A stretch of 64,000 nt of DNA, taken from assembly GCA_011390155.1 (NCBI GenBank), contig JAABSW010000005.1, positions 1 to 64,000 on the forward strand, read 5' to 3'. A model generated the notes under the pieces. The model was not told the origin of the DNA, searched no databases, and saw only the letters and a list, made by a program, of their open reading frames with translations. Origin of the DNA: Clostridiaceae bacterium (GTDB lineage Bacteria > Bacillota > Clostridia > Peptostreptococcales > Tindalliaceae). Of the stretch, positions 6,772 through 58,165 are shown piece by piece. The translations under genes were made by a program, and so were the position numbers. Within the stretch, counting starts at the first letter, position 1; the number at the start of each line of letters is the position of its first letter.

Positions 6772-6832
6772 TGTGGCGCACAATCGAAATACAGGTTCAG
6801 CTGTTGTAAGCTCCTGCCATATTTCTTAGGCG

Positions 6833-7004
6833 AATAGCTCTCCACGGGGTAAACCCATGACAGTGGCCGGATTCTTCATCCGTACCTCCAGAGCCCGAAA
6901 TGGGATTCTTTCGTTCTCTTCGGCACGTTGACCTTTTGCGCCCAGCATTGGGAAAACCCTCCCTTGTTATCTGAACGTGACTCATTCGCGGTGCAGCCTC
7001 TATT
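6833..7004 (-). promoter_or_regulatory. Lysine riboswitch (L box)
   Basis: Read on the minus strand, this leader has the AGAGG-TGC opening, a CAACGTGCCGAAG block, a GCTGGGC block and GGAGAGCTATT near the 3' end. The closing helix AATAG/CTATT spans the stated ends. These are the recognised blocks of the lysine aptamer. With the promoter upstream, the terminator at 6744-6771 and a complete lysine pathway downstream, the regulatory role is clear: lysine binding should favour termination before asd. Confidence 0.93.
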
Positions 7005-7042
7005 CTTGCAATGTATTCACTTGTCAATGGAACTTGAGAAAC

Positions 7043-38504: not shown

Positions 38505-38794
38505 AAAAAACCCTTCGTCTCGAAAGGGACGAAAGGTATTCCGCGGTACCACCCTTATAACTGGCCAATGTATGCTTTCTAGCAAGGTTGACCAATCTCT
38601 TAAATGCCTTAACGCGGCTTATCGGCACAACCTACTCTCTCATTTCTGACAGTGCAGAATCTGATGTCAGTTGTGCAGCTCCTGAGTGAACTTCCACTAT
38701 GTTTTGGTCCAGATGCTTCCAGCCAAGGCATCTCTCTCTTGAAGACCAGCTTATAGTGTACTCTCTCATTCTTTGCTGATAAGATGTTTGATTA
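38505..38794 (-). promoter_or_regulatory. T-box leader of pheS-pheT
   Basis: On the minus strand the leader carries the T-box AGGGTGGTACCGCG (38542-38555) followed by a terminator hairpin CCTTTCGTC/GACGAAGGG with seven T (about 38505-38535). A stem I loop near 38741-38743 reads TTC, a phenylalanine codon, the expected specifier. Uncharged tRNA-Phe should stabilise the antiterminator and allow pheS-pheT expression. The leader fills the gap before pheS. Confidence 0.95.
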
Positions 38795-52235: not shown

Positions 52236-52808
52236 TCATTTCACTGTTTCAAGATGTATGTGTTCATTTATTATAGATTTAGGCTTAACCAGTTTTCCTT
52301 CCCTCCAAATACCGCTTTCAACAGAACCATCCGGCCATATATAAATGCCTTCCCCGTGAAACCAATCATTTAGAAATTCTCCTTTATAACAATAGCCACC
52401 AGGTGATTTGAACGTACCTTTGCCGCACCTAACACCATTCTCCCAATTTCCTTCAGAAAAGGCACCGTGCTTCCACTTTTTAATGCCGTCGCCATGGGGT
52501 ACATCGTCCTTGAACCCACCCTCATAGACATCACCATCAAACCAGTGGTATTCTCCTTTGCCATGCATAAATCCAAACTGGAAATCTCCTCTGTACCAGT
52601 CGCCGTTGCGGCGCTTCAGATGTCCTTTTCCGTGAGGCACTCCTTTGTTCAACTCACCAGTGTACACTCCGTCTTCCCAATCGATGGTGCCATAAGCATT
52701 CTCTTTATTGCTCTTGTTGTGACCACTTTCCTGAATCTCCTGTCCATATTCGCTACGTGTTGTGACTTTCTGATGATCTTCAACTGATAAGGTTTCTTCT
52801 TTTTTCAT
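52236..52808 (-). CDS. MORN-repeat protein
   Basis: The 190-residue protein has a polar N terminus of about 40 residues and then about six MORN repeats (forms such as GVPHGKGHLKRRNGDWYRGDF). MORN repeats form elongated beta sheets that bind lipids or proteins; no signal peptide is visible. A promoter with TTGGCG (52875-52880) and TATAAA (52853-52858), 16 bases apart, lies upstream. ATG 52808 has AAAGGAG upstream. Role unknown. Confidence 0.85.
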   Translation of the reverse strand: MKKEETLSVEDHQKVTTRSEYGQEIQESGHNKSNKENAYGTIDWEDGVYTGELNKGVPHGKGHLKRRNGDWYRGDFQFGFMHGKGEYHWFDGDVYEGGFKDDVPHGDGIKKWKHGAFSEGNWENGVRCGKGTFKSPGGYCYKGEFLNDWFHGEGIYIWPDGSVESGIWREGKLVKPKSIINEHIHLETVK

Positions 52809-52852
52809 GACCCTCACTCCTTTGAATACCATATCATCGCCAATTCCAAGTA

Positions 52853-52898: not shown

Positions 52899-53150
52899 CT
52901 GTTACCTTACTTTAACAGGATTAGAATGCGTTATCTTAAAATAGATGCCTCAAATGTACATTTGGTGGCAGGTACTTAGTTTGTTCATCCAGGGATGTAG
53001 CTCCGCTTATCTCCTTTTTGAAGAAGAGAGAACCCTCGGGGTGATAGTTATCAGATAAATAGAATAATGTAAATATACCCAATTGAAAATGATTCTAACT
53101 ATCAAAGTCCTGGAATTTTCAGAATATTCCAGGACTTTTGTCTTATTATT
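52899..53150 (+). ncRNA. Copy 1 of a structured repeat, candidate small RNA
   Basis: No gene occupies this stretch of over 300 bases. It holds a hairpin CCTGTTA/TAACAGG (52899-52920) and AGAATGCGTTATC (52923-52935). Next come an inserted hairpin with arms TGCCTCAAATGT/ACATTTG-GGCA (52946-52970) and the 73-base core (52987-53059). The core matches copy 2 without gaps at 58 of 73 positions. TTATCT (52931-52936) and AGATAA (53053-53058) can close the structure. A hairpin AAAGTCCTGGAAT/ATTCCAGGACTTT (53104-53138) with a plus-strand T-rich tail follows, although no plus-strand gene precedes it. No known family was recognised. Confidence 0.55.
53104..53150 (+). terminator. Terminator-like hairpin after structured repeat copy 1
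   Basis: A 13-base-pair stem is followed on the plus strand by TTTTGTCTTATTATT. On the minus strand, after the B3/B4 gene, the T-run is only three bases, so the plus-strand reading is stronger; both are possible. Confidence 0.7.
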
Positions 53151-53166
53151 CGATTACGATTATAAT

Positions 53167-53874
53167 TCATGATTTAAATACAATTTCCATGTTATCCGGA
53201 CTAACCAGGTAGTTTTCGCAGGATCCTCCAAAATCAAAAATCACCATCTCAGTTATGGCTGCCATGGCTTCAACGAGGGAATCCTCTGGGTCCTCTGCCA
53301 TGCCCACCAGTTGAAAGATGATATGGTGACTGTCGAGAGTTGTTTTCCCCAGTTCACTTTGCCGCCAAATCCACTTTCTTGTCTGCACCTGGTTGCCACT
53401 GGTAAACACCAGCTCTCCCTCTTCCACCTTCTCTTCCTCCGTCTGGCCAAAAGGCAGGAATATCTCATTTCCTGTGCTGAACTGAACGGACAAATCTTCT
53501 TGAATATCCCCAAGATCATGGGCCCCCAGGGTAATCAAATACTCCAGAGATACTGCGTTACACAGGTCTACCAAAGCGTTAATCACCGGTAGTTGATCAC
53601 CTTTAAGAACACGTTTTACCATTGATTCAACAGAAACCGGAAATCGATTAGGATTAATGCCCGCCTTTTTCATGGTATCACGGTACAACGCAATGTTACT
53701 AATATCCCTTAATTCTTCTGGCTTTATTTTTCCACGAACATTTTCTTCTGCCCTACGTAATCGCATCTCATCCTCCTTGGTCGAAGAGCGATTTTTAATA
53801 TCCTTGCCGATGATAATGCCAAACCGCAGCCTGGGATCCAGTGCAAACACCTCTGGTGATACTGAATATTTCAT
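53167..53874 (-). CDS. Stand-alone B3/B4-domain protein (PheRS editing-domain-like)
   Basis: The 235-residue protein resembles the B3/B4 region of phenylalanyl-tRNA synthetase beta (INALVDLCNAVSLEYLITLGAHDLGDI, then SCENY near the end). In PheT this region clears wrongly charged tRNA. Stand-alone forms occur in many bacteria and are thought to act on mischarged tRNA, but their substrate is unsettled. AGGAGAGG precedes the ATG. It lies next to the diguanylate cyclase gene. Confidence 0.82.
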   Translation of the reverse strand: MKYSVSPEVFALDPRLRFGIIIGKDIKNRSSTKEDEMRLRRAEENVRGKIKPEELRDISNIALYRDTMKKAGINPNRFPVSVESMVKRVLKGDQLPVINALVDLCNAVSLEYLITLGAHDLGDIQEDLSVQFSTGNEIFLPFGQTEEEKVEEGELVFTSGNQVQTRKWIWRQSELGKTTLDSHHIIFQLVGMAEDPEDSLVEAMAAITEMVIFDFGGSCENYLVSPDNMEIVFKS

Positions 53875-56522: not shown

Positions 56523-57527
56523 CTATTCAGTCTCTTTTCCCTGATCTTTTGAAGCACTTCCAGGGCCCCTAAAGATACCTGTAAACATGTTTTTACCATG
56601 ATGGTACATATTGCCTGCTCCTTTTTTGGAAAGGTTCATGGCCGCCCGTCGAATGTAACCAGCGTTTTCTGACACAATAGTCCCTAGCAACCTTGCCGCC
56701 TGCAGAGAAGCAGAGCGTTTAATGCGTCTACGCTCGACTCGCACCAGACTTCCCATGTATTGCTGGGCAATAAAACCGACCCGTAATGTTAAAAAAGCAT
56801 TGGCCGTTCCCTGTATGGCTGAGTTCACTAAAATATTAACCGCTGCATTCACCCCTGGCACAAAGGACCCCAACATAGATCCAAAGAGGGTTGTAATCAT
56901 GGGTTCCATTTGTTCATCCAACACGTCCAAATCTTCGATTTCCCTGGCCAGCAGCACTGTGGCGGCCACATTGATGTATAACCTGATGAAATCTTTTGGA
57001 TTAGGCCTTTGATGGTAGATAGTGGCGATTTGCCACACCATCTTTGTGGCGCTGACCATAACAAAAAGGCCATCCAGGCTTCCGTTTTGAGACACGGCAG
57101 TGGTTAAAAAAACCTGGGAAGCAGTCCGTTTGGTCAACTTCTCAGTCTCCTTGTTCAATTCCCCCAGTTTATCCAATAACAAAGCCTCATCAGCGTCTGC
57201 TGGGATGGGTAATAACCCTTTTTCCTCCAGAATTTTGTTCCTGTTCAGATGTAGGATTAGATGCTGCTGATACTTTTTCTGAGCTTCTTCATCTTCTTCT
57301 GGGGGCAGTGCCATTGCCCTGGGCAGTTTGATGTACATAAACACAGGATACCCAATGGTATAACCAGCCACCGCCAACACTGCCAACACAAAGATCCAAC
57401 CCACCCAAGGGTGGACCAGGTTGATCCGTTGTTGCAGCGACAGTACCTGGCTGATGAAAATAATGACTGTCAGAAACAATAAGCCAACACCAAATAATTT
57501 TAATGACCGCAGGGTTTTATCCGTCAT
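56523..57527 (-). CDS. DUF697-domain membrane protein
   Basis: About 334 residues with two N-terminal membrane helices (LFGVGLLFLTVIIFISQVL and WIFVLAVLAVAGYTIGYPVF), an acidic linker and a C-terminal region of hydrophobic helices typical of DUF697 (YcjF-like). No GTPase domain is present in this protein. ATG 57527 has AAAGGAG 7 bases upstream. Copy 2 of the structured repeat ends just before the ribosome-binding site, so it may sit in this gene's leader. Function is unknown. Confidence 0.7.
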   Translation of the reverse strand: MTDKTLRSLKLFGVGLLFLTVIIFISQVLSLQQRINLVHPWVGWIFVLAVLAVAGYTIGYPVFMYIKLPRAMALPPEEDEEAQKKYQQHLILHLNRNKILEEKGLLPIPADADEALLLDKLGELNKETEKLTKRTASQVFLTTAVSQNGSLDGLFVMVSATKMVWQIATIYHQRPNPKDFIRLYINVAATVLLAREIEDLDVLDEQMEPMITTLFGSMLGSFVPGVNAAVNILVNSAIQGTANAFLTLRVGFIAQQYMGSLVRVERRRIKRSASLQAARLLGTIVSENAGYIRRAAMNLSKKGAGNMYHHGKNMFTGIFRGPGSASKDQGKETE

Positions 57528-57557
57528 CAACAGGCTCCTTTCATGTTACGTCTCCCC

Positions 57558-57681
57558 TTTATCCGATGACTACCACCGCTAAGACTCCCTCTTCTGCAAG
57601 AGGAAGATAAGCGGTGCTACGTCCCTGGATAACGCATTCTTAGCTTCTGATGGAGTTAAAACTCCACCAGAAGCTAAGAAT
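57558..57681 (-). ncRNA. Copy 2 of the structured repeat, candidate small RNA or leader
   Basis: Read on the minus strand: a 21-base-pair hairpin with a four-base loop (57681-57636, one G-U pair), AGAATGCGTTATC (57640-57628), then the 73-base core (57630-57558). The closing stem is TTATCC (57632-57627) with GGATAA (57564-57559), and inner stems CACCGCT/AGCGGTG and CCTCTT/AAGAGG. The hairpin contains the rnhA stop codon (57674-57676). The core ends about 30 bases before the DUF697 gene. It runs opposite to copy 1. Confidence 0.55.
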
Positions 57682-58165
57682 CCTTTTTATAACCTTCATC
57701 CTCCGGTAAATTGTCCTGACTGGCCGCCAGTTTTACCAACTCATCGCATCGTTCATTTTCTGGATGACCACTGTGACCCTTCACCCACAAAAATGCTATG
57801 TCATGTGGTTCAATCAGCTTAAGCAGTTTTTCCCACAAATCAATGTTTTCTGCCATGTCTTTTTTGTTGCGTTTCCATCCATTGCTTTTCCACCGTTTCG
57901 CCCAACCTTTTGTCACACCGTCCACCAGATATTTTGAATCGCTGTATAATGTAATTTCGCAGGGATACTTTAGCATTTCCAACGCCGTTATACAGGCTGT
58001 CATCTCCATTCTGTTGTTGGTGGTATGCTGGTATCCGCCGGAAATTTCTTTTTTGTGACCGCCATGGACCAAAATGGCAGCGTAGCCTCCCCGACCAGGG
58101 TTACCAAGGGCGCCTCCGTCTGTGTATATTTCGACTTTTTTCAAGTTGTCTTCCCCACTTTCCAT
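57674..58165 (-). CDS. rnhA: Ribonuclease HI
   Basis: The 163-residue enzyme cuts RNA in RNA-DNA hybrids. The first acidic residue lies in [11 protein letters not shown], the glutamate in NRMEMTA, the aspartate in [11 protein letters not shown] and the last in [17 protein letters not shown] is also present. GGGAGG precedes the ATG by 7 bases. The stop codon lies in the arm of structured repeat copy 2, so the C terminus may have been shaped by that element. Confidence 0.95.

Follow-up and report, generated by a model that had tools for sequence, protein, structure and literature searches.

Genes and Repeat Copies in the Window

The window, a stretch of 64,000 nucleotides from the draft genome of a Clostridiaceae bacterium (contig JAABSW010000005.1), carries two copies of a structured repeat. 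Copy 1 is located between minus-strand genes for a MORN-repeat protein (52236-52832) and a B3/4-domain protein (53167-53874). The neighbors of copy 2, also both on the minus strand, encode RNase HI (rnhA, 57674-58165) and a DUF697 protein (56523-57530). The following features were assigned:

52911..53059, plus strand: copy 1, 149 nt, degenerate and without hairpin A (B+C form), from consensus and model match
52911..52929, plus strand: left terminus of copy 1, TTTAACAGG, with remnant ATTAGAATGC, placed side by side with full copies
52931..52936, plus strand: 5' side of the copy 1 closing stem, TTATCT (helix 1 of the 14-sequence alignment)
52937..52991, plus strand: element B, 55 nt, nested and with a hairpin of its own, exactly missing from the 133-nt form
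52984..53059, plus strand: decayed hairpin C domain of copy 1 (model R2, 30.2 bits, E 1.6e-4); the model match shares its first 8 bases with the end of B
53053-53058, plus strand: 3' side of the copy 1 closing stem, AGATAA
53055-53059, plus strand: right flank ATAAA of copy 1
53104..53138, no strand assigned: terminator-like hairpin outside the element, with an equal fold on both strands
57558..57690, minus strand: copy 2, intact at 133 nt with hairpins A and C (A+C form), matched by model R1 at 146 bits (E 4e-34)
57634..57690, minus strand: in copy 2, the left end together with hairpin A, matched by model R3 at 61.3 bits (E 7e-12)
57558..57633, minus strand: hairpin C domain of copy 2, terminating in GGATAAA (model R2, 86.4 bits, E 3.4e-18)

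The alignment on which the original prediction was built was reproduced. In an ungapped alignment of the 73-base core of copy 1 (52987-53059) with the reverse complement of 57558-57630, 58/73 positions are identical, and 11 of the 15 differences are transitions. The closing stem reads TTATCT/AGATAA in copy 1 and TTATCC/GGATAA in copy 2. By BLAST in the same genome, copy 1 is 83% identical to the 188-nt consensus over positions 49-188 of the latter (E 1.8e-34), and it was matched by covariance model R1 in the 64-kb window at 29.4 bits (E 4.8e-5). Compared with full copies, it has lost the 38 nt of hairpin A that separate ATT from AGAATGC. The approximately 51 extra bases with a hairpin that had been noticed in this copy are real and represent the 55-nt element B (52937-52991). 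Since B explains the 55-nt size difference exactly, the extra bases are taken to be a nested mobile element. Copy 1 is evidently an old, dead copy, which has lost hairpin A and carries B.

The hairpin at 53104-53138 had been read as an orphan plus-strand terminator. It exists; however, it is not an orphan. It is symmetric (-18.4 kcal/mol on each strand) and follows the minus-strand gene at 53167-53874, whose stop codon precedes it by about 30 bases. Because this gene ends beside it, no plus-strand gene is required. A strict terminator scan scored no terminator at 53104-53138, the hairpin loop exceeding the length that the scan permits. Elsewhere in the window, a lysine riboswitch (6827-7010, minus strand) and a T-box leader (38522-38782, minus strand) were identified above the Rfam gathering score.

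Architecture and Distribution

Two copies had been seen initially; BLAST searches revealed dozens in the same genome and more in related Clostridia. In the 2.72 Mb draft genome, 47 matches were obtained with the core and 56 with the 188-nt unit, some of these matches being parts of a single copy. Intact copies have two sizes, 133 and 188 nt, the larger form consisting of the 133-nt unit plus B. The order of parts in the 133-nt unit is ATAAA (or ATCAA), hairpin A, a linker with TTAT, and a long interrupted hairpin C ending in GGATAAA. When intact copies were compared, their ends were found to be fixed (ATAAACAGG...CATCGG-ATAAA). Terminal inverted repeats are absent, as the left end is ATAAACAGG and the right end CATCGGATAAA. 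Boundary profiles gave ATAAA at 43/58 left and 59/73 right boundaries in family f1, and at 30/32 left and 27/34 right boundaries in family f3; the sequence beyond was random in both.

Several reduced forms were observed. Hairpin C is missing from L044, and hairpin A from L041 and copy 1 of the window. In ends-only forms of about 38 nt, the two ends are joined at their common TCTTAGC. No copy among those listed carried cargo between its ends, as a composite element would. No copy among the 32 tested sits within an ORF of at least 100 aa, and five overlap an ORF end. A form with hairpin A only (L063, G000:C58:30329-30392) carries ATAAACAGGATTC at each end and is almost a perfect palindrome. Head-to-tail tandem copies were detected at L182 (G013:C4) and L318 (G007); at the latter, the adjacent copies have one ATAAA in common.

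Module B is 55-57 nt long in other families of the order (TAAGTAGATGG...hairpin...TTTGTTCACCTA) and starts with TAAGTAG ahead of its hairpin. In the family of the window's genome it sits between A and C. It was also found at other sites in four genomes (G047, G102, G107, and G130). In the other families it occurs alone or in tandem (L207), within the hairpin C loop (L194, L196, and L197), or within hairpin A (L204). In the uninterrupted cases that were readable, it is inserted between CA and G. B is a second, independent mobile element nested in the 133-nt unit. At L092 (G130), from 1501, B is directly 3' of the CCA end of an apparent tRNA gene.

Model R1, whose E-values are rough, found the element in 46 of 394 genomes of the order, with 10 family labels, and in 35 of 391 genomes drawn from the class. 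Carriers include Tindallia sp. CSSed165cm_299 and Clostridiaceae bacterium LH_M71, which, judging from matching coordinates, appear to be G006 and G001, respectively; first-look candidates numbered 143 and 160 in two genomes. Rfam 15 returned no family at the gathering score, and nothing meaningful was matched at E-values up to 10. Zero matches were obtained in plasmids (PLSDB) and phages (INPHARED). Among IMG/VR viral contigs, two specific patterns were unmatched, and of 34 contigs with a short 16-base pattern 0 fit the model. No published description of the element was found among open-licence papers. The original prediction of an undescribed structured repeat has held up, given the many copies, the lack of an Rfam match, and the covariation of stems between families, and the element family is apparently undescribed.

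Evidence of Movement

An empty site corresponding to copy 2 was identified in a relative (G001), in which GATGAAGATTATATAGGGGAGGCGTAA is found in place of GATGAAGGTT-ATAAA...element...ATAAA-GGGGAGACGTAA; the match to the left flank there is short, spanning 49 nt close to a contig end. The C-terminus of RNase HI is EDEDYIGEA* in G001 and EDEGYKKDS* in the window's genome, where the final rnhA codons and the stop (YKKDS*) come from copy 2, from the segment with its left end and hairpin A. In another member of the Clostridia (G632), two full elements (L398:2072-2199 and 2672-2799) break comM/yifB. The comM frame is restored across the junctions with one ATAAA (EFNKKTLDALRQP and YHKFLRVARTFAD), and the restored protein matches YifB over the entire stretch and is ungapped at both junctions relative to the solved ComM (8rxd).

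Highly similar copies with unrelated flanks were observed in G194 (8 copies, 97-99% alike) and G073 (99-100% alike). Nearly all of the 8 copies read in G194 have ATCAA on the left and ATAAA on the right; in the exception, the right-hand ATAAA comes after a changed GG. The difference between the two words argues against a simple duplication of the target. In G006, a copy is present inside a transposase-like ORF, for which the Pfam assignment is weak, with ATAAA as the left word and ATGAA as the right word. A search for a paralogous empty site for this insertion returned just the occupied copy.

Based on these genome comparisons and the precise empty sites, the repeat is mobile DNA that has recently spread. 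Most copies have ATAAA on both sides, as would be the case if the repeat were a classical MITE and a DDE transposase had duplicated ATAAA as its target. However, terminal inverted repeats are absent, the target word is fixed and not variable, and the flanking words in G194 are systematically unequal (ATCAA left, ATAAA right); we consider a MITE very unlikely.

Fold and Covariation

Near-terminal palindromes are present at both ends, hairpins A and C being conserved with compensatory changes. In a 10-sequence alignment of five families, 18 of 38 pairs were changed on both sides; this was reached in 0/500 shuffles, a control that does not remove relatedness, and slid controls, which retain relatedness, gave far lower counts (2-10). 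In a 14-sequence alignment, both-side changes were found in 16/25 pairs of hairpin C and 7/15 pairs of hairpin A (equaled in 0/500 shuffles). The stem of hairpin A retains a mismatch, which is GT, AC, or AA depending on the lineage. Within one genome the pairs erode. Non-standard pairs were GT 60 (23 fixed) vs. AC 17 in f1, and GT 40 vs. AC 33 in f3. These pairs show no consistent preference for one strand. Covariation between families together with erosion within genomes fits selection of the fold during transposition, and not for each resident copy.

It had been suggested that the repeat is a plus-strand RNA with its own terminator. Strong covariation between families and the stable fold of the plus-orientation strand could indeed indicate a structured RNA, either a cis-regulatory element or a small RNA, which has been duplicated in the genome. 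However, copies are dispersed at unrelated loci with precise empty sites, hairpin-deleted and ends-only forms exist, erosion proceeds without a consistent strand preference, and no Rfam match was obtained. We consider an RNA function very unlikely, and the empty sites show the repeat to be mobile DNA.

Proposed Mode of Transposition

The repeat is probably a non-autonomous PATE-like mobile DNA element that inserts precisely at ATAAA, and the proposed mover is a single-strand transposase acting in trans. Upon insertion, the target word ATAAA would stay on one side and the element would supply an equivalent word on the other. The bottom strand may be written as TTTAT / CCGATGAC - hairpin C - GGATAA - hairpin A - CTGTTTAT /, with TTTAT as the 5' target and TTTAT or TTGAT as the final word. 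The same layout is found in transposons of the IS200/IS605 type, which a Y1 (HUH) transposase moves in single-stranded form. The transposase would recognize the hairpins. The GGATAA ahead of hairpin A may pair with the TTTAT words, making the TTAT/GATAA pairing guide-like. In IS608, guide sequences pair with target words.

Half-models of the element ends were searched at 71 Y1 loci, and no transposase gene flanked by the ends was found. The only strong matches at these loci were the two comM elements, a few hundred bases past a RAYT-like gene. With the hairpin C model, the best match to the left end of an IS605 element, upstream of tnpA, is weak (18.4 bits, E 0.17) and is in the expected place and orientation. 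The window's genome has one IS200-type tnpA. Its IS605 tnpA/tnpB was rejected as a parent, as the ends differ from those of the element. Among the carriers, G202 and G748 have no Y1 gene, and G194 and G446 have fragments only.

Recent copies in genomes without an intact Y1 gene could indicate that the element is moved by another enzyme acting on folded strands, such as a tyrosine recombinase (integrase/attC-like) or a nuclease-ligase. The conserved internal loops of the fold and, in G194, a right insertion word different from the left terminal word are in line with this. However, no candidate enzyme was found, the ends are by eye unlike integron R boxes, and the layout matches IS605 logic well, so that we regard this as quite unlikely. 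The broader reading, a class-wide gene-less folded mobile DNA with a non-Y1 enzyme working on folded single strands at ATAAA, appears doubtful.

RAYT (REP-associated tyrosine transposase) proteins are a further candidate source, the repeats then being REP-like. RAYT-like Y1 proteins of 240-340 aa are encoded in most carriers, the two G632 elements are just downstream of a RAYT-like ORF, and the TAAGTAG before the hairpin of B resembles GTAG-tagged REPs (PMC3733652). On the other hand, the element flanks no scanned RAYT locus, the window's genome has no RAYT-like match, and the A-C unit, at 133 nt, is far above REP length. Moreover, GTAG repeats have been reported in Proteobacteria, Cyanobacteria, Chloroflexi, and PVC, and not in Firmicutes (PMC3733652). 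An origin from RAYT activity is therefore considered unlikely, and the comM neighborhood apart, no RAYT locus was found to be a flanked partner. At that locus, the RAYT-like ORF (L398:1411-2130) continues in frame into a comM fragment, and G632 comM seems to contain a RAYT and two hairpin elements. RAYT-like genes were also observed beside GGGGTCAGGCTTGAATAATT / AATTATTCAAGCCTGACCCC sequences at L140 (G003) and L143 (G004); these resemble the TIR-flanked RAYTs described previously (PMC3733652).

Comparison with Known Systems

Abundant elements of this kind shape intergenic regions, gene 3' ends (rnhA), and gene loss (comM) in many Clostridia, and can be misread as regulatory RNAs. The combination of a strict architecture, recent copies, and a missing transposase makes the family a test case for movement in trans of gene-less single-strand elements.

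MITEs are recognized by terminal inverted repeats and a target duplication in common with an autonomous transposon, and the element does not have this combination. GTAG REPs are marked by GTAG at the base of a 20-40 nt hairpin together with a RAYT gene flanked by the repeat, and this combination was not observed at the RAYT loci scanned. GTAG REP/RAYT systems (PMC3733652) are alike in their many-copy hairpin repeats and in the RAYT-like genes of most carriers, but differ from the present element in its two hairpins, fixed ATAAA ends, and lack of a RAYT-flanking pair. The tiny B nested in a larger element recalls SMR-A in the PATEs of Haloquadratum; however, SMRs have inverted terminal repeats (PMC3119063), and B has one hairpin. 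IS200/IS605 elements have one-strand subterminal imperfect hairpins, a fixed T-rich insertion word, and no true target duplication, as seen here, but the Clostridia element has no transposase gene and the hairpins are only weakly alike.

The PATEs of Haloquadratum walsbyi (PMC3119063) are similar in the lack of terminal inverted repeats, the near-terminal palindromes, the short target word, the ends-only, core-deleted forms between short direct repeats, and the small repeats nested inside. A fixed target word of 4-6 nt with precise empty sites, as in PATEs, was found in the ATAAA profile and at rnhA and comM. It has been shown that Haloquadratum PATEs move although tnpA genes are broken (PMC3119063), and the puzzle of movement despite broken or missing transposase genes recurs here. 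Haloquadratum PATEs have palindromes in common with resident IS605 transposons (PMC3119063), which was not found for the Clostridia element. The latter belongs to another domain of life and, in contrast to PATEs, represents one covarying architecture across much of a bacterial class.
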